Part shown: positions 1,507 to 63,830 of the stretch, one piece after another
Layout: every line of letters starts with the position of its first letter
How positions within the stretch are numbered: the stretch's first letter is position 1
Source: Gongronella butleri
Lineage: Eukaryota; Mucoromycota; Mucoromycetes; Mucorales; Cunninghamellaceae
Direction of reading: 5' to 3'
Length of the DNA stretch: 64,000 nucleotides
Assembly: GCA_025201375.1 (NCBI GenBank)
Contig: JAIWZP010000007.1
Span: 186,001 to 250,000, forward strand
Notes under the pieces: generated by a model
Database searches by the model: none
Seen by the model: only the letters and a program-made list of their open reading frames with translations
What the model was told of the DNA's origin: nothing
Program-made: the position numbers and the translations under genes

Positions 1507-3699
1507 TCATTCCGAGAATGGCTGGCATTGGCAAGCGCAGTTGCTCACTGGGCAGCTCGAGTGCTTTTTGAACCATTCGGACATGTGGATGGCATGGCCG
1601 CCGTGCCTACAGGTCTGACACCACGTGAACCACATATTCAGACCCGATGGATCTTCTGCAATGGGGAAGAAACCGGTAAATCAAGCGTCCACCTTGTTTT
1701 TTTTTCTTGTTTTTTACTTACCACTGATGGCATTGTTAGTCACAATGGCCTGTCGCATAGCGTCATTGGGTGTGCCGAGATTCAAGAGGCAGAGTGCGCA
1801 CCTCGGGAGGGCTTTGCGGCAGCTGGAGCAGATGTTGATCTAACAAATCGCATAAAAGGGTCGAATCAGATACGCGCTAGGCAGCGAAGCCACGCGCTTT
1901 TACCTTTTGTTTTCCCGCCATCCTGTTGTTCGTCGATGGCGACACGCTGGCTTGCACGTTGACACGCTTGCCGTCGCGACTCTTGACATTGGGTGCGACA
2001 ATGCGATGACCCAGTGTTTGCGCGCAATACGAGCACCGCACATACACCTGCGGCGGTGCCACATCCTCTGTCGCGTGCATCAGCTTGCCGCGTTCAATGT
2101 CAAATTTGGCGCGCTGGCGCCACAATTGCCATCGATCAAGCAATGTGCGGTAGCTACAGCAAAAAAAAAAAAAAAAAAAAAAAAGGCAAAAAAATGAGCA
2201 CCATCTTTTTTTCCCTACTGGTTGACCTACCATTCAACCCATTCCTCGCAGCGCGCGTCTTGGATCTTGCGTGGCATGACAAAGCTGGCGATGAATGCGG
2301 CCGATTGCACGTCACCAGTGCGATCGACATAGTTTTCAAGTAGATTCATGCCGTGGGTATACAAGCCAGTCACCATCAATCCTTGGACGTCGCCTTCTGA
2401 TGTGACTGTGTCCAGCACACGCGCGAGCCAGCCGCTCAACTACGCCAATGCGACCGGAAAACGGTCAGACGTGAACACGTAAAAAAAAAAAAGAGAAAAG
2501 AATGGTACCTGATTGTCCTCGAGAAAGCGGAGCGCGATGACCAGACGTTCTTGAAGTGGTATCAGCGGATCGTCCAGGACGTCTGTCCAGTCATTGGAGG
2601 CAATGTATTTGAAAATGGCGCGAAGGTAGGGCTGCGCGTCCAATTCCTTGATCAGCAAGTCACACAGATGCTGCCATGTAGGATTGCGCGTGCTGTTCCC
2701 CCGACAGCCCTCCAGGACCATGGAAATCAACTTGCGCTGGAAGCCTAAATCAATTGGCCGCGTGAGCAATGATCAGCAATCCTATCCGAATGCCCATTTC
2801 GCTCCTCATACCTTGAGACGGATCTTTGGCGTCCGAGAGGATGTCAATTGCGCGGTCTGGTAACCCATTGAACATGGCCCATGCCGCCGCCTTGTCATAT
2901 TCTTCTTGCTCTTGCAGGCTAATAACAAGAAAAAAAAAAGATAAACGACGCGTTTGTGCAAGGGTAGCTTGGTGTCGTACTCGAGCAAAACTTGATCAAG
3001 TCCACTGATGGTCATGTCAAACCCGCAGGCGGAGAGAGCTGATCGACGCTGGTCAATGTTCTTTGTGTTGGTGTTGATGTAAAGTTGGTCGGCCTTGTTG
3101 TCGGCCATGCGCGGTGAGCTGCCTGGCGACGCCCTGCGGCCCTTGTCTAATCGGATTCTTTGTAAGCTTTCCATTGTATCACTCATGCCATCATTTACCT
3201 GTGCCTGTCCAGATATTGTACACGCCTCGAAAATACACATCCTTCAACGGTGAGTCGTGAATTCCTATGAAAAGGCAAGTCAATGGCTTTTTCTAATTTC
3301 TGTTTCGTCGCCAAGGGTTAGCTTACGCTCTAACCATGTCCAGAGCGACAGCAAACGCGTGTCTTTGGCAACAATTTTCGTGTTGTCTTTGCACTAATTG
3401 GGGGAAAAGCGTGAGCAAGCAATAGCCAGCAAGAAACAAGAGGCAAAGCTCCACTTTACATTCATTTGGTACCCTGCTACCGCTCGCTGGTGCATGAGAG
3501 TGGCGACGTCCGTGTCGTTTCTACAAAAAAAAAAAGTGAACAAAACGACCGGTTTGAGGCTTTTTGGCCACTTTTGCTTATTCCAAAGCCCTTACATTGT
3601 CTTTCCGGGTGCTGACAAGGGGTCACCCCATAATAGGTGGGTGTTAAACGCTACGAAAAGGTGGCTTCCTTGTGGTTGCCAGGATAGTGCTCCCTTCAT
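1507..3699 (-). CDS. SEA4: Mios/Sea4-type SEACAT (GATOR2) subunit, lacking the WD40 half
   Basis: The predicted protein has 510 aa in 11 exons: 3699-3596, 3520-3460, 3393-3327, 3264-3199, 3146-2981, 2918-2812, 2744-2509, 2439-2231, 2153-1904, 1839-1722, 1655-1507. It matches the C-terminal part of Mios, a subunit of the vacuolar SEA/GATOR complex that signals amino acids to TORC1. Seen in the sequence are the alpha-solenoid ([19 protein letters not shown], then [13 protein letters not shown]), a zinc ribbon ([14 protein letters not shown]) and the terminal RING-like module ([18 protein letters not shown], then [10 protein letters not shown]). Human Mios has about 875 aa with an N-terminal WD40 propeller. 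Here only a short first exon precedes the solenoid, and the divergent ERG27 gene starts 198 bp upstream, so no propeller fits. The loss may be a real truncation or a gene split elsewhere. The ATG choice is the least certain part. Confidence 0.88.
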
Positions 3700-3897
3700 G
3701 GTGGAAGAAAGAGGACAAAAAAGAGCGCCAATTGAATTTTTGTGATCAACTTTTTTTTTTTTTTTTGGCCTGTCATTCGGTCACAAGGTCCGAATGCGTC
3801 TGATCCACCCCTTTTTCTTTTTCGCTCGATTTACCCCTGGTGGCCCTTTTCTCTCTTTCTACTCCAAAATCGTCCATTTCATCTTTTTTTGTCACTT
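3700..3897. promoter_or_regulatory. Divergent intergenic promoter region, Mios-like gene / ERG27
   Basis: These 198 bp separate the start codons of two genes read outward. The stretch contains a T run (about 3751-3766) and pyrimidine-rich sequence just upstream of the ERG27 ATG. I see no clear TATA box. Sharing of control elements is inferred only from the spacing. Confidence 0.5.
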
Positions 3898-5191
3898 ATG
3901 CCAGGCACTGCTATTGTTACTGGCGCTAATGCCGGCGTCGGTTATGGCCTGATCCAGCACCTTTTGCAGCGCGATCCCGACATGGGCATCATTATGGCTT
4001 GTCGCAACCCCACAAGGGCAAACCAGGCAAAGCAAGGCTTGCTCGCTGAGTTTCCCGGTGCAACCATCCATATCGAGCTGGTTGACACCAGCAGCATTGC
4101 CAGTGTCCTCGCTTTTTGCGCAGCAATTCGCAAGCAGTAAGACGAAATTCTTCTGCTGCTGCCCTGGACCGCCAAGGTTTTAATTTATTTATTTTATAAT
4201 TTGTAGATTTACCTCCATCAGCCATTTGTTTTGCAACGCGGGCATCCTGAGCTCCACAGGTATCAATTGGTCCCTGACGGCCTACCTGGTTTTCACGGAC
4301 CCGATCGGGCTCATGGAGCGCGCTGACGCCACAAAACAGGCGGTGGGCGAGATGAACAAGGACGGCATGGGCAAGGTCTTTGCCGCTAATGTCTTTGGAC
4401 ACTATGTCATGGTAAGTCGCCCCCTTTTCTGGGCAGCTGCCATGCGTGCCCCGGAAGGACACTCATTTTCGGCCCACGTGAAAAATAGATGCGCGAATTG
4501 GAGTCTCTGCTGGCCAGCTCCGGCGACGGTCGTGTCATTTGGACAAGCTCCATCACCGCAAGTCCCTCGAGCTTTGATATTGACGATTGGCAAGGCATCA
4601 AGTGGTAATTAAAAAAAAAACATCATCTTTGTCTTTGACACATTATCTTTTCTCTCTGTTTATAGCCTTGAGCCATACGAATCGTCCAAATGGGCGTGCG
4701 ATTTACTAGCGGCCGTCAGCACTGAGCGCTTCAAGACGCAGAATATGCCCATCACTTCGTTCACCACATCACCTGGCGTCGTCGCTACTAGTATTGCCGA
4801 CCTCCCCGGGTGGATCAAAGCACTCCGCGTCGTTTTGCATTACATTGTAAGCCAACAAGAGGAGCACATAGCATGCCATGTGCCTATTCCTTTTTTTTTT
4901 TTACGCGCGCTGACTCTTTTCCCTTGTTTTTAGATGCGTTTCATCGGCGTCACATCGCAGAATATCACTGGTTACTGCGGTGCCTTTGCAGATGCATACG
5001 TTGCGTTTGCGCCACTTTTGTTGCTGAATGCCACCATCCGATACCTTGCCTTGACCGACCGGTGGGGCCGCTCCTTCATTGGCGAACAGCCGCTGCCTGT
5101 GGACATGGACATTGCAACGCAACTTAACGACAAATGCGAAAAAATATATCAGGCACACAAAAGCCTTAATAATAAAGAGAGCCTGGAATGA
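3898..5191 (+). CDS. ERG27: Erg27-type 3-keto sterol reductase (short-chain dehydrogenase)
   Basis: Five exons: 3898-4136, 4207-4411, 4489-4604, 4666-4846, 4934-5191. Erg27 reduces the C3 ketone during C4 demethylation in ergosterol synthesis, at the ER or lipid-droplet membrane, using NADPH. The protein opens with the Rossmann motif TGANAGVG. It then has the NAG motif in LFCNAGILS, followed by the GINW segment typical of this subfamily. NVFGHYVM-type sequence (AANVFGHY) and the catalytic YxxxK as YESSKW follow, with VIWTSS supplying the serine before them. The order and spacing match fungal Erg27 and animal HSD17B7 rather than generic retinol dehydrogenases. Exon phases join cleanly. It diverges from the Mios-like gene. 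The C-terminal part, after the MRFIGV exon, is less conserved but has a hydrophobic stretch suited to membrane association. Confidence 0.92.
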
Positions 5192-48395: not shown

Positions 48396-50465
48396 TCAAA
48401 AGGCATTGGACGAGGAAAACTTGGTAACATCTTCAAAGACAAACTCCTGGGTATCGTTGCTGCGGTGTGCTGGGACAGATGATACGTTTCTCGGCTGCAG
48501 CTGGCGGTCAAACATCATGAAACTTGGATTCAAATAGCTCTGCACCGGCATAGAAGTATTGTCGCACATTGATGATGAGGTCTGCTCGATGGAAGCCGCA
48601 GACGCCACGTTCAGGACATTCAAATTGCCATCAGTCCACAAAGTTTCGGGTATGGCAGTGCCTTGCGCAGATGTCGCTTGTGGTGGTGCATTGATTTCAG
48701 TGGTCAACACTTGTTCAATCTGATGCACCATGCCGATGCAAATATCATCTTGCCATTTCAGCTCTTCGTATTGGCGCAGCACACGCAATGCCCGCATCAA
48801 ACACAGCTGACATCGACTTGTGATCTCTGGATCGCCAAATTTCATGCAAGAGATGAGCATTTCAATGGTCCGCTTGTGCTCACCGGGCCAGGTTTGGCAG
48901 GGCGCAAATTGGACCAGTGTTCCCCTCACGCGCACGAATTCAATGGACGAATCAACAACGGATAATACGGCCTCGCGTTGCCATGGGTTCAGCGCATACG
49001 GCTTGCCATTCTGTGCATTCAGATCGGCGTCCGTTGGAAAGAACAATCGCATGAGCAAGCTCATATTGGTGCATCGTTCCATGGCCAGCACATAACACAC
49101 TTCCCGAGCAATCAAATCATCTTCGGCGCCAATGGTCGTCAATGTCAATTCCGGGGGGAGCTCGGCTTGCCATTGGCGCATGGTGTCGCGTACATTTTGC
49201 ATCAAGGATATCATTTTTGCGTCGTCCGATGGATCAGCTTGTTCAATTTCTTTTGCTAATCTTCGTCGAAACAGCCACAGCTTTAAAATGTTGTTCCAGC
49301 CAAGCGCACCAAGCGCTTCATCGGGCTCATCCATGCTGCACGGCAGCGGTCGCTGGAGCTGCAAAATCGCGTCATGATCGTCGGACCTCGGGGACAAGAT
49401 GGAATTGGGAATCGTGCCTGATTCCAACAGAAAATGATCGGCATGAAAAAGATACCACCATGTACGATTGGCAAGCTCAGCCTCCACGGTGGTCGGTCGT
49501 TCCACAGGTCGTACACCGAGCATCATCGCCATGCGCACCGCCACTGTATGCCAAAGAGCTTTTTGCTCAGTCGGTATCCGATTCGTCATGTTGCACAATG
49601 TCAATGCATAGCTACCAAGTGGATCAATTAGCGCCCCTCCTTTTTTTTTTTGCCGCAGCATGAAATGATCAATTCTTACACGTGATGCAAATGAGGGTCA
49701 TCAAAGCAATCAGAAAGCGCTTCACGCACCAATTGAGCAAGTTTGAATTGAACAGTGTCTACAATGGCATTGTCACGCGTCTTGAGTAATGCGGCTGGAA
49801 AATGATGAATAAACACATGACGCGCCCAAAATAAACCCAGCGCAAGCACCAAAGGATCCTTGGACGGGTCGCGGAGTTTGCTGTACCAGGGCATCATCAC
49901 CCGCTTGGGAATGACTGAAGAAAGATGATTAACTAGTCAAATTTTACACCACATCTTTTGCAATTCAAGCAATACCTCCATAGTAATGGTTCATGCAGCA
50001 GCAAATGTAATGAACGCAGTCATCGAGAATGGTGGGCAGCACAGCATCAAAGAGGGTCCATGTCGATTGCGGTCTCCATATTCCAGATGCATATAATTCA
50101 CCATGAAAATGCACATAGGGCAACACAGAATGCCGCACTTTGGTGAGAGCCGACGAAGAGGGCGAGGCCGGAGGCATGCCATGAAGGCTGAAGCGCTGAT
50201 CCACTAGCGTTCCAAGAATGTGCATAAAGTGGAACAGAAAATGAGGGTCAAATAGCTTTATAGTGTAGATGCCAGGCTGCGACTCTTCCACCGTCCACTT
50301 GTCGCTCATGGATGCCATTCTTAGGACGTGCAGCGGGTTGCTCAGACTTGTAAGTCGCATAGTGGTCTCAAGCATCTTTCTCTCGTCTTCTCGTCGTATT
50401 CGTGGTCGGCGAGGGTATTTTCCGCGAATAACAAGGCCATTGTGTCGTCCAAGAACAAGCTCCAT
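48396..50465 (-). CDS. Fungal-specific transcription factor domain protein without a zinc cluster
   Basis: Three exons (50465-49976, 49914-49680, 49611-48396) give 646 aa. The central region is the fungal-specific regulatory (middle homology) domain of Zn2Cys6 factors. Recognisable parts are LWHTVAVRMAMMLGVRPVER, ELANRTWWYLFHADHFL and the helical blocks that follow. The expected N-terminal Cys6 cluster is absent. The protein begins MELVLGRHNGLVIRGKYPRR with no cysteine pattern, and the divergent gene starts 177 bp upstream. A missed short upstream exon is possible. Without it the protein could be a co-regulator or a silent remnant. The C-terminus is polar and ends EDVTKFSSSNAF. Confidence 0.8.
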
Positions 50466-50642: not shown

Positions 50643-53032
50643 ATGTCGGATGCGAAATACTTTCAGAGAGGTATCATGGCATTGTTGGTGTGAATATGCA
50701 ACGAGACTTACACAGTGTCATAGGCAAGACGCAGGAGCTGCGTGCCGAGCTGAATTCCGACAAGCGCGACCCAAAGCACCAGCGAAAAAAGACCGTGATG
50801 AAAAAAATTGTGGCCAACATGACAATGGGAAACGACATGTCGCCTTTATTCCCTGATATCCTCAATGTCATGAACGTGCCTATCTTGGAAATCAAGAAAA
50901 TGGTGTACCTCTATCTCATCAATTACGCGCGTAGCAAACCTGACATGGCGATGATGGCCATTACCATGTTTATCAAGGTAAAAAGGCCAAAATTCCCATT
51001 TTTTTTTCAATGTGGTGTGCCTGATTTTTTTTTTTAAATTGCGCTTTTAGGATGTTGAGGACCCCAATCCCTTGATTCGTGCGTTGGCGATCCGTACAAT
51101 GGGATACATTCAAGTGGAAAAGATTGTTGATTGCTTGATTGAGCCTTTACGACATTGTCTCAAGGATAAAGACCCATACGTGCGAAAAACGGCAGCAATT
51201 TGTGTCGCGAAATTGTACATGTACGACAATGTCTTGGTGGAAAGCGAGCGTTTTATTGACATGCTTCGCGACCTTTTGAGTGATCCTAATCCTACGGTAA
51301 TACACAATCCACATATGCAGTACGAGAAATACTCATTCATTCACGACGTGATCTAGGTCATCGCCAATGCAGTGGTTGCTCTCACTGAAATCTCGGAACG
51401 ATCTGAAAATATTCAATTGAAATTGAATCACAGCATTGCAAGCAAGCTGGCGGCTGCCTTGAATGAATGCTCAGAGTATGTATTCCGCTTTGTATTGTCG
51501 CTGCTGTGTGCTCATTTTTTTTCCTTGTTTCGCAGGTGGGGCCAGACTTATATTTTGGAAGCCCTGATGTATTATGTCCCACAAGAACAAGGCGATGCTG
51601 AAATGCTGGCGGAGCGCATTGCCCCACGACTGCAACATGCCAATTCGGCTGTTGTTTTGACATGCGTCAAAGTCATGATGTATCTGATGAATTACATGAA
51701 AAACGAGAACGATATCGTCTCGTTTTGCCGTAAACTCAGCCCTCCACTTGGTAAAATACGCTCTTTTTTTCCCCGCATGCATGTGAAATCTCGATCAAAA
51801 CTCACGCGTGTTTCCTTTTTTTAATTTTCCTAGTCACCCTGCTATCCAATGGCCCCGAGGTTCAATATGTGGCATTGCGAAATATCCTGCTTGTGATTCA
51901 GCGGCGCCCCGAGGTGTTGCGAAACGATATAAAGGTGTTCTTTTGCAAATACAATGATCCAATCTATGTCAAGCTCGCCAAACTGGAAATCATCTTTCGA
52001 CTGGCCAGCAGCAACAATGTGGATCAAGTGTTGAGCGAGCTAAAGGAATATGCAACGGAAGTCGACGTTGATTTTGTACGCAAAGCGGTGCGGTCCATTG
52101 GACGACTTGCTGTCAAGATCGAATTGGCCGCCGAGCGTTGCATCAAGACACTCTTGGACCTCATCCACACAAAGGTCAACTATGTGGTGCAGGAAGCAAT
52201 TGTCGTCATTCGCGACATCTTCCGGAAATACCCAAACAAGTACGAAAGCATCATAGGCACTCTCTGCGAGAATTTGGACAACTTGGACGAACCTGAAGCC
52301 AAATCCGCCATGATCTGGATTATTGGCCAATACGCTGACCGCATTGAAAACGCTGACGAGCTCTTGGATGACTTTTTGTACACGTTTTTGGATGAACCTG
52401 CAGAGGTCCAGCTTGCGCTTTTGACCGCAACCGTGAAACTATTCATAAAACGCCCCACTGCCGGCCAAGACCTGGTGCCAAAGGTTCTAAAGTGGGCAAC
52501 CGAAGAAACAGACAACCCGGACTTGCGCGATCGTGGCTACATTTATTGGCGCTTGCTCTCTACGGACCCAACCAGTGCAAAGGTAACTTTTTAAAAAAAA
52601 GAGAAACATATTTCTTTTTCTTGTACTGACATCTTTTGCTAGGCAATCGTGTTATCCGACAAGCCGTCCATCTCTACAGAAAGTGATAATCTTGATTTTA
52701 ACTTCTTGGATGAGCTGTTGCTGCACATCTCCAGCCTGGCATCCGTGTATCACAAGAGCCCAACGACCTTCATTCATCATTACAAGCCGCGGTTCTTGCT
52801 GCCTTCCCCAGTGCTTCAAACACCCAATCAAATTCACGAAACCTCTTCGTCTTTCGCCTCGGACCAACTGCAACAGCAATTTGCATCCAACGACAGCACT
52901 AGTGTCACCGTGAATCGCCTTTCCTTCAATGGCGCCATCCAATCTTCAAATCCATATGCTGCCGATGTCATCCAGCCTGCCACTACAAGCGCAACAAACG
53001 GCGGAAATGTTGATTTGCTTCTCGATTTGTGA
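50643..53032 (+). CDS. APL2: AP-1 complex beta-adaptin, without appendage domain
   Basis: Seven exons (50643-50670, 50724-50977, 51051-51296, 51357-51475, 51536-51750, 51834-52582, 52643-53032) give 666 aa. Beta-adaptin is the clathrin-binding large subunit of the AP-1 adaptor at trans-Golgi and endosomes. The trunk is well conserved: [26 protein letters not shown]-type sequence ([20 protein letters not shown]), [20 protein letters not shown] and [11 protein letters not shown]. After the trunk comes a hinge of about 110 residues, ending [16 protein letters not shown] is a clathrin-box motif. The C-terminal ear of animal beta-adaptins is missing, which also occurs in some fungi. AP-1 versus AP-2 is not fully separable by eye. 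Confidence 0.9.
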
Positions 53033-53189: not shown

Positions 53190-53261
53190 TGGACCCGGAG
53201 GGAATCGAACCCCCGATATTCTGCATGCAAAGCAGACGCCATACCCCTAGACCACAGGCCC
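53190..53261 (-). tRNA. tRNA-Ala (anticodon TGC)
   Basis: The 72-nt minus-strand sequence starts GGGCCTG and ends CGGGTCCA. The 7-bp acceptor stem includes G3:U70, the alanine identity pair. The anticodon stem TCTGC/GCAGA closes the loop TTTGCAT, giving anticodon TGC. The T arm contains GGTTCGATTCC, which also serves as B box, and TGGTCTAGGGG fits an A box. There is no intron. CCA is not encoded. Confidence 0.93.
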
Positions 53262-55668: not shown

Positions 55669-58034
55669 TTACATGACAAGCTGAATGCAAATTTTGTTTC
55701 GCGTCTTGCCTTTCCATTTCATGAAGACGCGCATGGGGGGTCGCGTCAAGGTTGCGACGTGATTGATATTTTTTGGGAGATGTTTTTTCAATGTGCCAAC
55801 TTGCACGTTTAGAGAAGCAGCCGCATTCGGACCGCCAAAGACAATTTCGGCAGGCTGCTCATTATCTGTTGGGTCCCAAATCTTGTATTGGCGGGCTCGG
55901 GGTGGCGTGAGTTCGGTGATGTCGCCTTTATATAATGGCTCGTACTTTTCAGGGACAAAAAAAAAGAACAAAAAAGATGGTGAGATGGCAGCCAGGGTTG
56001 TATCCAAGTTGATGAAAAGTTACCTCTTTGTTCAATCGCAAAACGACAAGAATGGGCCGCACGACGTTGCGCCACGTGGCTTTCTTGATGACTTTGTACG
56101 TCTGGTCTGCGCGCAATTGAACCTGGCGACGACCGACCGCCTCAGACATGTCGACGTTGCTGTCGTAATTGCTGAAGATGTTGGGCTCGCGAGGGTCAAT
56201 CACTCGGAATTTTGAACCTGTCGCCGCAACCGTGTTTTGGCGGACCGTCTTGAATTCCAGATTTTGCAGACGATTGTTGCCTTTGTTTTCATCAAGGTGG
56301 TCCAAGACGAGACCTTCGGCTGTTAATCGCATGCATCGTTCGTACGTGGTTTCTTCTTCTAAAATTTTAAAGAGGTAGGATGAGACACCATCCTGGGCAC
56401 GCGTCGCGAGCTCGCTTTTCGTCGGACTTACTTGGAGATGCGGGAACAATACTGTCATCATTGCCATTTCCGCTGGCAGATTCGTCAAATTGGCGCTTTT
56501 CGTCGTAGTCGTCGTCAAATTCATATTGTTCGCGATTTTCGACATTTTCGTCGTCGTTATCAGCGCACTCCGAAATGGACATTGCAGATCGCACGCTTGC
56601 ATCGTCGTCCACAGACATGGTCATTGCACGTCGCACGGTCGTGTTGTCGTCGACGGACATGTCCATTGCAGATTGCACGCTCGCGTCGTCGTCGATGGAC
56701 ATGGCCATAGGAGATTGTGGGGATGTGTACGCGAAAGAATTGGTGTTCATGAGCGACGAGGGTGCCTGGGAGCGAGAAGGCGATGAGGATGCCTTGTAAA
56801 CAGGGATGAAGAAACGCATTGCCATCATTCGATGAACAGGGATGGTTTTGACCTCGCCGACGCGAGTCTTGAGTCTCGTGACAAAATAGTTGCCTTGGCG
56901 GTCAAGAGTACGCTTGATGAGTCGCTTGGACACGGAGTGCCGTTGGTTGCCGGAAACTGACAAGTCATATTCACCAAAGTCATCTTGTCCAAGCTGGCCA
57001 ATATTAAACCAAGAATTTTCATCCTTGTCAAGGGGGTCCAAGGGTGGCTCGTATGACTTTTTGTCGATAATGGCATATCGCGGGGCTCCTGGTGCACGCG
57101 GCTTCACCAAGTTGTCGTACTTGGAGAGGGCTTGCAAATTGTCGATGGCATTGTTGCTGGGATCTGAGTCCGTGTGGTCAATTTCCAAGCTGCGGTCGAA
57201 ATCAGGACAAAAGGCTGCATAGACAACGCGGTTCGAGAAGCGTTTGACGGGTTTTCGGTCAATCTTGCTGAAGAAGTGCACACTTTTGCAACCAAAGTCA
57301 TCTGTGTATTGCGTGAGCTCGGTCATGGATGTAGACGTCAAAATGGCACCATCTGAGCGGACAATGTAATGATCCTCGATCTGAGCTTCAGGCTCGTTAT
57401 ATGGTACGTGCCAAAACTCTTTGTTATTGTCCTAAAAAAAAAGAAGTGAGCAGGCGAATTTCACTTTTTTAGTGAATGAAGAGCACGTACATTTAGCCAT
57501 TGAATGTATGCCTTGCGCATCTCGGCCCTACTGACTATCAAAAGATTGGCTGCGGCGGAATTTTGGCTGTTGAGGTCCTTGAGCACGATGATGTAGTCAC
57601 TATAGCTGTCTTTGATACCAAAAAAAAGTACACGCAACGGCCTTGGTGTTCTGTACATTGCAGCTGGTACTATTGGGGCCATAGAGCGTGACGAAACCAA
57701 CGGGATTTTCGCGCGTTTTCAATCCGGTCATAATTGTCTCGCGCTTGCTCATCTGACCTTGCTTGCCAAACTGACCTTTTTTGAGCACATGAATGGTGCC
57801 ATCCAATGCGACCCATGGTTTGCTCATTGTTTCAAAGTCCTCGACTGCTGCATCAACATACTCCAGCGGCCCTTAAAAAAACGCGTCAAAATGCTTGAAA
57901 CAGCGCCTTATTATTATTGTTATTTTTTGCTGAATCATACTAATGGCAGGGCCAGGCAAGATGGGTAATCCGAGTGTCTGTGTCTCTTTCAGCGCGCAAA
58001 GCCGCGCTGCATGTGGTGCCGGAAGATGTGGCAT
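55669..58034 (-). CDS. Dual-HNH protein with possible NUMOD-like C-terminus, locus 1 (most complete copy)
   Basis: Exons: 58034-57941, 57871 to about 57622, about 57621-57491, 57431-56432, 56358-56024, 55944-55669. The main exon contains HNH motif 1, AFCPDFDRSLEIDHTDSDPS followed by NNAIDNLQALSKYDNLVK. A repetitive Asp/Ser/Met segment follows, with four units like AMSMSVDDDASVRSAM. The next exon has a second HNH-like motif, EGLVLDHLDENKGNNRLQNL followed by EFKTVRQNT. The last exon includes FGGPNAAASLNVQVGTLKKH, reminiscent of the NUMOD1 DNA-binding motif of homing endonucleases. The N-terminal part (TLYGPNSTSCN) is unknown. Around a T8 run at 57622-57629 the frame shifts by one base. An unusual 34-nt intron or an error could explain it. 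If bridged, the protein is about 690 aa. Activity is untested inference. Confidence 0.68.
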
Positions 58035-58665
58035 TTCAAGGGAAGAAAGAGAGCAATGGCAAGGTGAAAAAAGAACAAAGAAAAGAAAGAGAGAAGAAAA
58101 AAGGCGAGACCACAATCAAAAAGTAAAAACGAGCCTCTTGGCTGCTCAGGATGGTCAATGTTCCCTCACGCATTTAACGTGCTGATCATTTCATTGTTGA
58201 AGAAAAAACCTTGGTAGTGCCACTTTCTAGCACGTCGCCGTGTGGCAATTTCGTCTTGTCGGAGTTGAAAGACGCGTCGAGTATATTTTCAACCTGCTGC
58301 GCCCCCATTCCCACTGCCCAGGGCTGTCACCTACGGTGTGGCACAATTTTTTTTCCATTTATACCGAATGGGTGCATGCTTCATGCCAATAACATTTTAC
58401 GCGCGTGAAAAAAAAACAAAAGTTGTGCCATGCGGTGGGTGACAGCCCTGGACAGCACCGGGGATTGTCACACAGCGACGTGTTATTATTATTTTTTTTT
58501 TTAAAAAATGAAATGAGCAGCACACCAAATGGGGAAAAAACAGCGGCCAACCTGAGCGGCCAAGGGGCTCGTTTTTGCTTTTTGATTGTGCTCTCCCCTC
58601 TTTCCTTTTTTTATTGCTCCTTTTTCTCCTTCCCTTATTTTTATATTTCACCTGGCCCTCTTTAC
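58035..58665. promoter_or_regulatory. Intergenic region between head-to-head HNH-family copies
   Basis: Locus 1 (minus) and locus 2 (plus) start outward from this 0.6-kb stretch. Its two edges are inverted copies of each other. For example, CCTGAGCGGCCAAGGGGCTC near 58551 resembles the complement of 58130-58152. The middle has a second inverted pair, GGGCTGTCACCTACGGTGTG near 58321 against the complement of CGGTGGGTGACAGCCC near 58432. This could fold into a large hairpin. No other gene is seen. Confidence 0.5.
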
Positions 58666-60016
58666 ATGTCACCTCGCCCGACACCACATGCAGCGCAGCT
58701 ACGCGTGCTGGAAGAGACACAGACATTCGGATTACCCATCTTGCCTGGGCCGGTTATTCGTACGATTTAGCAAAAAAAGAAGCGCCGTTTCAAACATTTT
58801 GACGCGTTTTTTCCTTTTTAGGACCGCTGGAGTACGTTGATGCAGCAGTAGAGGACTTTGAAACAATGAGCAAACCATGGGTCGCATTGGATGGCACCAT
58901 TCATGTGCTCAAAAAAGGCTAGTTTGGCAAGCAAGATCAGATGAACAAGCGCGCGACAACTATCACTGGATTGAAAACGCGCGAAAATCCCGTTGGTTTC
59001 GTCACGCTCTATGGCCCCAATAGCACCAGCTGCAATGCATACAACACCAAGGCCGTTGCGTGTACATTTTTTTTGGCATCAAGGACAGCTATAGTGACTA
59101 CATCATCGTGTTCAAGGACCTCAACAGCCAAAATTCCGCCGCAGCCAAATCTTTTGATCGTCCGCAAGGCCGAGATGCGCAAGGCGTGTATTCAATATTC
59201 TGAGCACACATCCCCGTAATCCCCCATGGTCATGTCCGTCGACGACAATGCGAGCGTGCAATCTCTAATGTCCATTTCGGAGCGGGCTGATGACGACGAC
59301 AACGACGAAATGCGCCAATATGACGAATTTGACAATGATGACAGCATTGTGCCCACGTCTCCAAGTACGTTCAACAAAAAGCGAGCGTGCTTATTCCCAC
59401 TGGAAAATCCGAAATTCAAGGCAATCCGCCTAAACACGGTTGCGGCGACGGGTTCGAAATTCCGTGTGATCGATCCTCGCGAGCCCATCATCCACAGCGA
59501 TTACGACAGCAGCGTGGACATGTCCAAGGCTGTCGGTCGATGCCAGGTACAATTACGCGCAGATCAGACGTACAAGGTCATCAAGAAGGCCATGTGGCAC
59601 AGCATCGTGCGCCCCATTCTCGTCGTTCTGCGCTTGAACAAAGAGGTAATCTTTTTATCAGCTTGAATACAACCCTGGTTGCCATCTCTCTCTCTCTCTC
59701 TCTCTCTTTTGTGTGTGTTTGTGTGTGTCTGTCTCAAAAGTATGAACCACTGTATATCGGCGATATCACCGAGATCGAGCCACCCAGAGGACGCAAATTG
59801 AAGATTTGGGATCCCAAAGATGCCAGTCAGCCAGCCGAGTTTGTCTTTGGCGGCCCAAATGCCGCTGCTGCTTTGGGCGTTCAAGCTGGCACACTGAAAC
59901 CACATTTGCCAAAGCAGATCAACCACGTTGTGACCTTGACCCGACCTCCCCTGCGCGTTGCAATGCAATGGAAAGGCAAAATGCGCAACAAAATCTGCAT
60001 CCAACGCATCACATGA
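58666..60016 (+). pseudogene. HNH-family locus 2, degenerate, both HNH motifs lost
   Basis: The copy follows locus 1 exon by exon. It starts MSPRPTPHAAQLRVLEETQT, a splice joins GPVI to RPLEYVDAAVEDFE, and GFVTLYGPNSTSCN follows. Breaks are an in-frame TAG at about 58919-58921, the same one-base shift at a T8 run near 59069, and a deletion that removes the whole HNH-1 exon core. The second HNH signature is also gone (CLFPLENPKFKAIRLNT instead). The C-terminal part, GSKFRVIDPREP through KICIQRIT, including FVFGGPNAAAALGVQAG, is intact over two exons. A CT/GT microsatellite lies in the last intron (59686-59735). Conservation of the C-terminal module after loss of the nuclease motifs is notable. 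Confidence 0.8.
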
Positions 60017-61140
60017 ATCTTCAAGACATCCTTGTCCTCTTCCTCCATTAGTCTGTGCACGAATACCATTGTCAAAAAAAATCACGAATTGTCTCCAGCA
60101 ACTAGCTCACAAGCGGGCCTACAGCCCTTTGATGCACGTTTGCTACATGTGTTTATCACGCAAGGTCTGTACCTCACTTGAAATAAAGAAGTCTTTAATT
60201 AATTAATAATAATAATTAAAAAGGAGTGTTGCAAACGTTAACGCGGCAATTGTAATTGTGTAGCGTTTATGTAAGGCAGAAAAGTACGCAAGCAATGAAA
60301 CAAGACAAAACAAAAGCGACATTAAATTTTTTTTTGTTTTACCCGGCCGTGGCCGCTTGGCCCGCCTTTTTTTTTTTTTTTGGCTAAACATCATACCTCG
60401 AGCCCACACGAGTCGTGTATGGTAAATTAGATGGCACGATGGCACGGTGGTGCCGCACGCTCGCGCTTGGTCTTGCTGGGCGTGGAAAAAAAACAACGCA
60501 CACGCCCTTTTCCGACTTTTGTTAGACATGGATCAGGCAAGGTGGTACAAACTCTCGGTTCATCAGGGGCTGGTGACACGAACAGAGTGCGTGTCGGCCA
60601 ATGGAGGCCGTGATGTTTTTTTGCACCAATCAGAAAATCCAATTTCCGAAAGTTTCGACGGCGCATAGGTCCGCAAAATAAAAGACAACGCGCCAAAGTC
60701 TGTCGGACAAAGTTGCTCAGAATCGGATTCTCTACGCATCTACTTGATCGATGGCACCTGAAAATTCAAAAGTGTACTCGGAAAGCGCGCAAAAAGGATT
60801 GAGCTAACAGAATGCCAGAAATCGCACTTTTCGACCGCGTTCAGCTCGGGATTTTCGCAGGTAAGGCCCAAGATGAATTAATCAGAGTTGCTCAGAATTT
60901 TTTTTTCTACAAATGCTCTGAGCCTAGCTCTCGCAAAAAAAAAAAAAAAAAAATCAAAAGCGCGAGCTCAATCGCCGTTCAAAGGTTTTTTTTTTTTTTT
61001 TTTTTGGCTGTAAAAATACAATTTTCAAAAGGTGCGAACCTACAGAGCACGGTTTCTGGGTCTCCCAAGGCGCAGCTTCCAGGAAACACTCTTAACATAA
61101 ATTGTAGCATTATAATATAAAGTCACAATGCGGCGACTCT
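60017..61140. other. Intergenic region, nothing recognisable
   Basis: A short plus-strand frame at 60528-60668 begins MDQARWYKLSVHQGLVTRTE and contains GRDVFLHQSEN. It is too short and has no match I recognise. T and A runs lie at 60367-60381, 60936-60953 and 60987-61005. Repeats of the word GCTCAGAAT occur near 60714 and 60890. No RNA gene was found. Confidence 0.4.
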
Positions 61141-62030
61141 TCAGAGATGGAATTATAGGATGTCACTTTTATTTTTATTTTGGGCAAAGATTCTCATGCA
61201 CAAGCTAATGGGGGAAGGGATAATGGTTGTTTTGGAGCACAGCATGATGCGCTGTATTACAACGCTGCGCGAGTCTTGAGGCTCGTGAAAAAATATTTGC
61301 CGGTGCGGTCGTCCATCGGACGGGCAAACAATCAGAAAATAACACCCGAGTGCGTCTCTTTCGGACGGTGCCGGTTTCAAACGTGCGCCTGACGAGTTGC
61401 TTTGACGCCGTATGTCGTTGATTGCCGGAAATGGGCAAGTCGTAATCGCCGAAATCATTTTGACCGAGCATGCCGATGTTGACCCAAGAATTCTCGTCCT
61501 TGTCAACCCGGTCCAAGGGTGGCTCGTAAAACTTATTGTCGACGATGGCATATCGAGGGGCGTCTAGTGCACGCGGCTTGACCAGGTTGTCGTACGAAGA
61601 AAGGGCTTGTAGGTTATCGATGGCGTTGTTGCTGGGGTCCAAGTCCATGTGGTCGATTTCCAAGCTGCGGTCGAAATCAGGACAAAAGGCTGCATAGACA
61701 ACGCGGTTCGAGAAGCGCTTGACGGGTTTTCGGTCATTCTTGCTGGAAAAGTGCACACTTTTGTAACCAAAGTCGTCAGTGAATTCAACGAGCTCCGTCA
61801 TGGACGTGGACGTCAAGATGACACCATCGGAGCGAACGACGCAATAATCATCAATCTCCGCTTCTGGCTCGTTGTACGGCACATGGTAGAATTCCTTGTC
61901 ATTGTCCTAAAAGAAGATAAAAAAAAAAAAAAGGGCGTGGGCAAGCGATATTCATCTTTTTTTAATATGTGAGGGGCACGTACATTGAGCCATTGGATGT
62001 AGAATCCGAGTCAAATCTGACTCGGATGAC
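61141..62030 (-). pseudogene. HNH-family copy 5, truncated after HNH motif 1
   Basis: The minus strand carries the end of the short exon (YIQWLN followed by GTACGT at about 61984), the splice acceptor near 61908, and then the large exon. HNH motif 1 is intact: CPDFDRSLEIDHMDLDPSNN then AIDNLQALSSYDNLVKPR. The frame continues past NFGMLGQNDFGDYDLPISGN-like sequence to FETGTVRKRRTRV. It then diverges and stops at 61205 without the Asp/Ser repeats, HNH motif 2 or C-terminal module. A stretch of AT-rich sequence follows. Confidence 0.78.
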
Positions 62031-62120
62031 ATGACGTATCCAAGTCGAGTCTGAGTCGATTCCAAGTCGATCCGAGTCATCCGAGTCTGCGAGTCAACGA
62101 GTCGAGTCACGGGTCACGAG
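62009..62120. repeat. GAGTC-rich satellite inside an HNH-family exon
   Basis: About 110 bp consist of repeated GAGTC/GACTC words (CCGAGTC, AAGTCGAGTC, GAGTCGATTC and so on). On the minus strand it separates NLVIVSRVEK from YIQWLN, two parts that are adjacent in locus 1 (NLLIVSRAEMRKAYIQWLN). It therefore arose or was inserted within that exon. Confidence 0.8.
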
Positions 62121-63035
62121 TAAATATGACAAGTGCTAATTTCTCGACCCTACTGACGATCACAAGATTGACCACAGCGGGACAATCAGAAAATGACACC
62201 CGAGTGCGTCTCTTTCGGACGATGCCGGTTTCAATCGTGCGCCTGATGAGTCGCTTGGACGCAGTGTGCCATTGATTGCCGGAAATTGACAAGTCAGAGT
62301 CGCCGAAATCATCTTGGCCGAGCTTGCCAATACTGAACTAAGAGTTCTCGTCCTTGTCAAGGGATCCAATGGTGGCTCGTACGCTTTTCGGTCGACAATG
62401 GTACATTGCGGGGCGTCCAGTACACGCGGCTTCACCAAGTTGTCGTACGAAAAAAGAGCTTGCAAGTTGTCAATGGCACTGTTGCTTGGGTCCAAGTCCA
62501 TGTGGTCAATTTCCAACTCGCGGTCGAAATCAGGACAAAAAGCAGCATGCGCAACGCGATTGGAGAAGCGCTTGACGGGTTTTCGGTCAATCTTGCTGTA
62601 GAAGCGGACACTCTTGTAGTCAAAGTCATCCGTGTATTCGGCGAGCTTGGTCATGGACGTGAACGTCAAAATGGCACCATCTGAGCGGACAACGTAATAA
62701 TCATAGATCTCTGCTTCCGGCTCGTTGGCACATGGTAAAACTCCTTGTCATTGTCCTGATAAATGATCCAAAAAAAAAAGGCGTGAGAAAGCGAATTTCA
62801 CCAATCAATCACTTTTTTTTTAATTGGTGAGGGGCACGTACGTTGAGCCACTGGAAGTACGCCTTCGCATCTCGACCCTACTGACGATCACAAGATTGTC
62901 CGCAGCGGAATTTTGGCTGCTGCGGTCCTTGTACACGGTGCAGTAGTCGCTATAGCTGTCCTTGATGCCAAAAAAAAAAAAAAGAAAGAGAAAGGGTAAA
63001 TAAGAGCGCGTCGCGAGCTCGCTTCTCCTTGGACT
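62121..63035 (-). pseudogene. HNH-family copy 4, chimeric with copy 5
   Basis: The minus strand begins near 63035 with the short exon (GIKDSYSDYCTVYKD, then NLVIVSRVEMRR). After a splice at about 62757 comes the large exon with HNH motif 1: CPDFDRELEIDHMDLDPSNS and AIDNLQALFSYDNLVKPR. A small deletion and frame breaks lie near 62725 and 62337. Just after KRRTRVSFSDC the sequence jumps to AVVNLVIVSRVEK, which belongs to the previous exon of the next copy. Unequal recombination between tandem copies explains this junction. Confidence 0.75.
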
Positions 63036-63643
63036 TACCTTGAGGCGCGACAAAGTATGAATTTGTCACCTCGACCCCCCCCACCTACCGGGTTTTGAAC
63101 AGCACCACGAGTTTCTGCACCTTCGAGAACATCAAAACACCAGTACAGCTTCATCACGATTGACCATATTGCATGTCCAATTGCTGGATTTTGAACACTT
63201 GGCGATTTGGCGATGAATTTTGCGATGAAAAAGAGGGAAAAAAAGGGAGAAAATACAAAAAAACGATTCTTTGAAAGCATAGGGTGCTTTTCAATTGTTG
63301 TGCTCCCATCTCCCAGGGCCATCATCGCCGCATGACGACGTGCGTCATGCGGCATGAATGTGTTGAAAATTTTACTGATTTGGGAATAGACCGAAAAAAA
63401 ATCACCAGCGAGAAATTTATCATACTCGAGAGGGGCAGCCAAGAAATGAAAGCTGGCTTGACGTGGGAAAAAAAAGGTGGCAACCTGAGCAGCCAAGGCG
63501 TGTTTTTGCAAATCTTTCTTGAAAAGAGGAAAAAAAATGGACTCCGTCCAAGGAAGCAACAATGGACCTGCCATTTTCCTTTTTTGTTGCACCCCTTTCC
63601 CCCTTTTTTTTCATCTCGCCACAGTCCTCTTTTTCCCTTTGAC
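63036..63643. other. Spacer with an element fragment
   Basis: The segment 63177-63210 (ATTGCTGGATTTTGAACACT and onward) resembles 13398-13430 inside the 556-bp TIR element. The flanking CAACCTGAGCAGCCAAGGCG near 63480 matches the 5' flank of locus 2 (58549-58570). This shows that the promoter region was copied with the family. No gene is seen. Confidence 0.45.
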
Positions 63644-63830
63644 ATGTCACACCGTCAGGCGCCACACGCAGCGCGGCTTCGCGCGCTGGAAGAGACACAG
63701 ACACACGGTCTACCCACCTTGTGTGACCCTGTCATTCGTACAATTCAGCAAAAAAAGGGCGCCGTTTCAATCATTTTGACGCGTATTTTTTCTTGTTGAT
63801 GCTGCCGTGGAGGGCCTTTAAAATGGTAAA
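63644..63830 (+). pseudogene. HNH-family copy 3, 5' remnant only
   Basis: ATG at 63644 starts MSHRQAPHAARLRALEETQT, matching the first exon of loci 1 and 2. The splice donor (CATTCGTAC) is present. After the intron only VDAAVE-like sequence (GTTGATGCTGCCGTGGAGG) remains; the usual RPLEY codons and acceptor are deleted. The match ends near 63830. The rest of the window to 64000 shows nothing recognisable. Confidence 0.75.

Follow-up and report, generated by a model that had tools for sequence, protein, structure and literature searches.

In a 64,000-nucleotide stretch of the genome of the soil fungus Gongronella butleri (hereafter the window; assembly GCA_025201375.1, 33.0 Mb in 110 contigs; contig JAIWZP010000007.1, called C78, 186001-250000), five related stretches at 55.6-63.8 kb belong to a nuclear gene family whose proteins carry repeated HNH nuclease units. 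The plan of these proteins is a decayed N-terminal module A, an intact module B, an intact module C that a low-complexity insert appears to interrupt, and a tail of two units akin to each other. Modules B and C are homologous to HNH nucleases; besides the repeat plan, the family has introns common to distant paralogues, has been under selection, and has undergone local birth and decay of copies. The first-pass annotation of the window had described a nuclear gene family that has introns, has amplified locally and has two HNH motifs; that description is borne out, and both motifs of a chain are intact. The reading that we favor, if with some reserve, is that of an old, host-resident nuclear DNA endonuclease family of G. 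butleri, built from repeated I-HmuI-type HNH units, that probably acts as a two-site cutter and whose copies have been duplicated and have decayed locally. I-HmuI-type enzymes are best known as single-unit, strand-nicking phage enzymes; this fungal nuclear family repeats the unit three to five times, and it also bears on how phage-type nucleases settle in eukaryotic chromosomes. The sample is a single genome and the data are sequence data only.

Repeated I-HmuI-type HNH units

Locus 1, alone among the five window stretches in being near full length, matches Pfam HNH_3 in module B (31.9 bits) and in module C (29.1 bits), both over the gathering cut-off of 24.8 bits, in agreement with the two HNH motifs originally proposed. 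As a full count, however, two is too low. A hidden Markov model (HMM) of 18 viral HNH segments found three units in the C42 paralogue (paralogues are named here by contig; 18.3, 50.7 and 27.2 bits) and five in C24 (14.6, 14.0, 17.2, 53.3 and 48.7 bits, in order), which overturns two as the complete number of units and suggests three HNH-like modules in the family of locus 1. Two clear units each were found in C37, C22a, C56 and exons 3-5 of locus 1. None of the shuffled sequences (five proteins, 400 shuffles each) reached 10 bits with this HMM, which is not fully independent of the family because its segments were retrieved by likeness to A1, a profile of five family members.

When A1 was compared with PDB, the sole sequence at E<=10 was I-HmuI (1u3e; E 6.4e-18). 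It aligned in two stretches, one covering chain residues 5-100 (module B) and the other residues 68-149 (module C and the beginning of the tail); a search with a single family sequence returned 1u3e at E 0.3, beside three unrelated matches. The family was assigned the beta-beta-alpha-metal fold of HNH_3 and I-HmuI-type His-Me finger nucleases, the structure model of the C37 paralogue itself being of low confidence.

Module A scored low by itself with the viral-segment HMM: 1.4 bits in C37 (reached by 11/1000 shuffles) and 1.9 bits in C22a (10/1000), and module A of C56 was not detected by it. By profile comparison, a module A profile of five sequences from four paralogous genes (C37, C22a, C22b, C42 and C56) matched the viral HNH profile with a probability of 87%, against 99.6% for the module B profile, and matched the fungal module B profile with a probability of 24%. 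In a tree of 26 units, the A units of C37, C22a, C42 and C56 separated from the remaining 22 at 96% support; the inner branches were weakly supported. Module C appears to be split, the end of its N-terminal half and the start of its HNH core lying at residues 341 and 430 in C42 and C22a, and at residues 207 and 347 in exons 3-5 of locus 1. The N-terminal half alone scored 3.6 bits in C42 (1/1000 shuffles), 5.8 bits in locus 1 (0/1000) and -1.6 bits in C22a (87/1000). In the C42 structure model, the insert has a predicted local distance difference test (pLDDT) score below 50 at residues 343-438.

Catalytic residues and a proposed two-site model

The Asp, His and Asn of HNH enzymes act as base and metal ligands. 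In an alignment of the units, with module A of locus 1 taken from reading frames, the His is kept in all six B units and all seven C units, and in 1/5 A units; the Asp preceding it is kept in 5/6 B, 6/7 C and 0/5 A units (of the broken copies only locus 1 is counted, and C22b is not included). Asp, His and Asn occur together in both B and C of C37, locus 1, C22a, C42 and C23. Such joint retention would be needless in a pure scaffold, and it counts against the proposal that these are domesticated, non-cutting DNA-binding proteins in which the HNH units form a binding scaffold and catalysis is lost or irrelevant. We regard that proposal as unlikely, even though catalytic residues have been lost widely: the His in 4/5 A units, the Asp in both B and C of C56, with C24 units 1-3 and the two C35 units altered as well. 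The C24 model (L045, G000:C24:213500-219500, about 1800-4220) has its five HNH-like units in one protein, with Asp and His in units 4 and 5 and not in units 1-3.

I-HmuI and its kin nick one DNA strand (in the part of PMC3428280 drawn on here); therefore, two sites on one chain could give a double-strand cut. In the two-site model that we prefer, modules B and C would, like I-HmuI, nick one strand apiece. A single chain could thereby produce paired nicks or a double-strand break, with the decayed A unit and the tail perhaps helping to bind the target DNA and to choose it. In the cell, such an enzyme might serve to control foreign or repeated DNA, to take part in repair, or to cut at one specific locus. 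A wider generalization, which we offer as speculation with the odds well against it, is that there exists a class of single-chain, multi-headed HNH enzymes in which some units cut and decayed ones read DNA, used by fungi against selected sequences and diversified by duplication and loss. With two sites apparently intact and another decaying, the family offers a natural experiment on the possible path from a nicking enzyme to a two-site cutter; the two-site model is directly testable in vitro through the intact paralogues.

Gene structure, introns and paralogues

Locus 1 lies on the minus strand. Exon 1 (57941..58034) encodes a short N-terminal peptide (MPHLPAPHAARL...), aligns with exon 1 of the C37 paralogue, and is followed by the donor GTATGA. 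Exon 2 (57491..57871) holds module A, a decayed HNH-like unit with its His replaced; it is interrupted in this assembly by a frame break with stops, which is either a real break or an assembly error, and the homologous C37 exon is intact (P0001). Exon 3 (56432..57431) encodes module B, with its HNH_3 motif at about 57108-57230, the N-terminal half of module C, and the Asp/Ser/Met-rich linker that had been noted at first reading and that evolves fast. Exon 4 (56024..56355) carries the HNH core of module C (about 56231-56317; the 29.1-bit match, present in the genome search too) and tail unit 1. Exon 5 (55669..55944; translation and tblastn) encodes tail unit 2 (FGGPNAAASLNVQ...) and the stop codon. 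The four predicted introns, of 69, 59, 76 and 79 bases, are all GT-AG and placed as in the annotated C37 paralogue, consistent with the ordinary nuclear introns claimed for the locus.

These intron models are predictions from sequence, which leaves some room for an artefact of gene prediction in which annotation has fused separate single-HNH genes. We consider this very improbable: in C22a, and also in C42, a single open frame (the last intron being in frame) spans modules B and C with the two tails, another spans units 3-5 of C24, and the unit order and intron places recur at independent loci. The N-terminal intron is in phase 1 in C37, locus 1, C42 and C56; the intron after module A is in phase 0 in C37, C42, C56 and C22a, at the same alignment columns. 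Since the paralogues share these positions and phases, the multi-unit plan predates the split of paralogues that are 20-30% identical.

Genome-wide, Pfam HNH_3 had at least 29 matches on at least 10 contigs, at least 22 of them over the cut-off; these are lower bounds because the genome scan scores best candidates only. Intact paralogues of locus 1 exist. The C37 gene, spliced by hand, encodes 697 residues that are 100% identical to BC940DRAFT_320827 of G. butleri, and C37 carries a broken copy besides this complete one. BC940DRAFT_306416 matches the C42 model at 100% identity, and C22a, which forms an adjacent complete pair with C22b, is 94% identical to a two-member cluster represented by BC940DRAFT_353852. 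C42, C56 and C24 provided further gene models, C23 and C89 partial matches, and C28 and C67 broken ones. An eleventh contig with a family member, C35, was found with the C24 protein as query; its frame (L064, match 175233-175664; 331 amino acids) is degenerate, with two HNH-like units that have lost Asp and His. Outside the C22a/C22b pair, two-unit HNH pieces lie on the C22 plus strand (L047 1400-2400 and L055 1278-2360), with the His kept and the preceding Asp not. Beside the broken C37 copy, on the minus strand (L009), is a frame that, judged by eye, resembles a Tc1/mariner-type transposase.

Local duplication and decay in the window

The claim of five related copies within 8 kb held when examined by tblastn with the C37 paralogue protein and by DNA self-comparison, with the qualification that four are fragments. 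Locus 2 (58494..60093, plus strand; tblastn and self-comparison) is inverted and internally deleted: it retains exons 1-2, parts of the linker, the end of exon 4, and exon 5, and lacks the HNH motif of module C and most of exon 3 (the part before the linker). Locus 3 (about 61260..62001, minus strand) is truncated to mainly exon 3, with an HNH_3 motif of 30.8 bits, over the cut-off; locus 4 (about 62182..62977, minus strand) is broken by stops and comprises the end of exon 2 and exon 3, with an HNH_3 score of 21 bits, under the cut-off. Both were delimited by tblastn, and together they repeat roughly exon 3 in direct orientation. Locus 5 (63606..63797, plus strand; tblastn and self-comparison) is a fragment of exon 1 only. 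Identity among the copies is 77-83% for pieces of at least 600 bases. Local duplication, both inverted and tandem, with later truncation probably gave rise to the cluster.

Between window copies, the ratio of nonsynonymous to synonymous substitution rates (dN/dS) ranges from 0.12 to 0.25 (Nei-Gojobori; only in-frame stretches, of 79-174 codons, in five comparisons). With values this low, the fragments derive from copies that were under selection before they broke. Silent sites are saturated between locus 1 and C37, and the proportion of nonsynonymous differences (pN) rises from 0.23 in the structured part of exon 3 to 0.61 in the linker. Over 400 codons, C22a and C22b show 18 differing sites, with a dN/dS of 0.57.

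A mixture of near-complete and broken copies, seen both in the window and at C37, is also what the WHO clusters of yeast look like, where intact nuclear nuclease genes stand with pseudogenes (in the portion of PMC7282813 used here), although in the window the best copy has a frame break. HNH nucleases are, moreover, classical homing enzymes. The family could accordingly be a still selfish, unorthodox homing element with a WHO-like life style, whose repeated homing beside its target leaves one intact and several decayed copies; this seems to us a minor contender. Locus 1 is not an intron- or intein-encoded homing endonuclease, having GT-AG introns of its own and sitting between other genes, features with which a free-standing homing gene is still compatible. 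Against homing, no piece of the flanking sequence, with its adaptin and class II tRNA synthetase genes, recurs inside the cluster: a blastn comparison of the cluster with everything else in the window and with the 8.4 kb that follow found no target-gene fragment of the WHO type and no outside sequence repeated within it, a local 148-base tandem repeat excepted. When locus 1, C24 and C42 served as genome-wide queries (C22 and C56 were left out), no close copy lay on another contig; C37 came nearest, with a protein 65% identical to that of locus 1, and the only close pair seen, C22a/C22b, is local. The common intron positions indicate an old resident gene, and WHO proteins carry a different nuclease. 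Where the first-pass annotation had left the choice between a domesticated and a still selfish nuclease family, the balance leans towards long residence, given introns common at 20-30% identity, purifying selection, and the lack of a close copy on other contigs with those three queries.

To the left of the cluster lie an adaptin gene (window 51755-52591; Pfam Adaptin_N match) and a tRNA gene (window 53190-53261, minus strand; Rfam RF00005, 58 bits), and to the right a class II tRNA synthetase gene (L054:3520-4212). Contamination or an organelle origin of the cluster was rejected on account of the Adaptin_N and tRNA synthetase genes and the GT-AG introns. The 148-base tandem repeat (2.3 copies, L054 1559-1902) lies immediately beyond the right edge of the window, where it separates the HNH cluster from the tRNA synthetase gene. 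An open frame of 433 amino acids (window 48399-49697, minus strand) has no Pfam match at E<=0.001. No long terminal direct repeats, a mark of KolobokP transposons, were among the DNA self-comparison matches of the window; no search aimed at transposase genes was made.

Phage relatives and known systems

I-HmuI is a Bacillus phage HNH homing endonuclease with one unit in 174 residues, encoded in a phage group I intron, whereas the fungal genes are nuclear and free-standing, contain spliceosomal introns and encode three to five units each. Single units also prevail among viral relatives: of 74 viral frames among the matches listed from the viral scan (one of which, L088, was cut wrongly), 72 had one unit at 14 bits or more, one had two, and one had none. 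The two-unit frame (L106; IMGVR_UViG_3300021399_000107 of IMG/VR, 294 amino acids, match 3001-3522) resembles the fungal family in having two full HNH units in one chain, but both are strong and there is no split third unit. In the phage collection, 797 records matched P0003 and none covered 80% of it. In Gordonia phage GMA4 the nuclease gene encodes one HNH unit, and P0002 (377 amino acids, metagenome), the other match of the C37-protein search, has a single HNH.

ORF18 of Staphylococcus phage Golestan101-M (BCG66279.1, LC557520.1/L070 487-1395; 302 amino acids, 'hypothetical protein') pairs a unit lacking the DH motif (13.2 bits) with an intact unit after it (42.3 bits), just as fungal modules A and B are ordered. 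It aligned with P0003 residues 64-265 in one tblastn alignment (25.7%, E 6e-4). Unlike the fungal proteins, it has no unit C and no split insert, and it is a continuous phage frame. The idea that a decayed-plus-intact HNH pair is a fungus-only trait was therefore rejected; the pair occurs in phages, and modules A and B may have been acquired together, as a pair, from such a source.

Among eukaryotic systems, yeast WHO elements and HO endonuclease resemble the G. butleri cluster as nuclear fungal nuclease genes, but their proteins are of the intein-zinc finger type, and WHO clusters contain FBA1 fragments (by the sections of PMC7282813 cited), of which the G. butleri cluster showed none. KolobokP transposons likewise are eukaryotic nuclear elements with a His-Me finger nuclease, but theirs is a single I-PpoI-like unit beside a DDD/E transposase, in animals, whereas the fungal units are of I-HmuI type and repeated (as far as the cited part of PMC9587614 goes). 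The domain order had been thought to belong to no named family; in keeping with this, the database names are 'hypothetical protein' and there is no NCBIfam match. Among the protein matches listed, no other species showed the apparent nuclear form with three to five units and a split C, in a comparison limited to about 8000 candidates per search, where candidates need shared 5-residue words and paralogues of 30% identity are not linked, so that relatives in other Mucorales could escape. Literature searches returned no paper on a fungal multi-HNH nuclear family by title or start of abstract, and the main text of the G. butleri draft genome paper does not contain the terms 'HNH', 'endonuclease' or 'transposon' (PMC9117579).

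Tail units

The segment FGGPNAAASLNVQ in exon 5 had been likened to NUMOD1. This was not upheld at the level of Pfam: exon 5 has no match to Pfam NUMOD1 (PF07453) at E<=1, and the one genome-wide match is under the cut-off and away from these loci. Neither NUMOD1, NUMOD4 nor the NUMOD-like family of I-HmuI (PF22083) had a match over its cut-off anywhere in the genome, and PF22083 had none at these loci. The A1 alignment does extend into the C-terminal NUMOD-like domain of I-HmuI. By profile comparison, the two tail units resemble one another (probability 90%); units 1 and 2 of the tail match viral NUMODs with probabilities of 51% and 39%, respectively. Compared with 300 shuffles, the tail scores of C42 (4.1 bits) and C24 (2.8 bits) were just above the best shuffle, and the other four tails were not. 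The 331-amino-acid frame of C35 has a NUMOD4 match of 21.6 bits, just under the cut-off of 23.4 bits.
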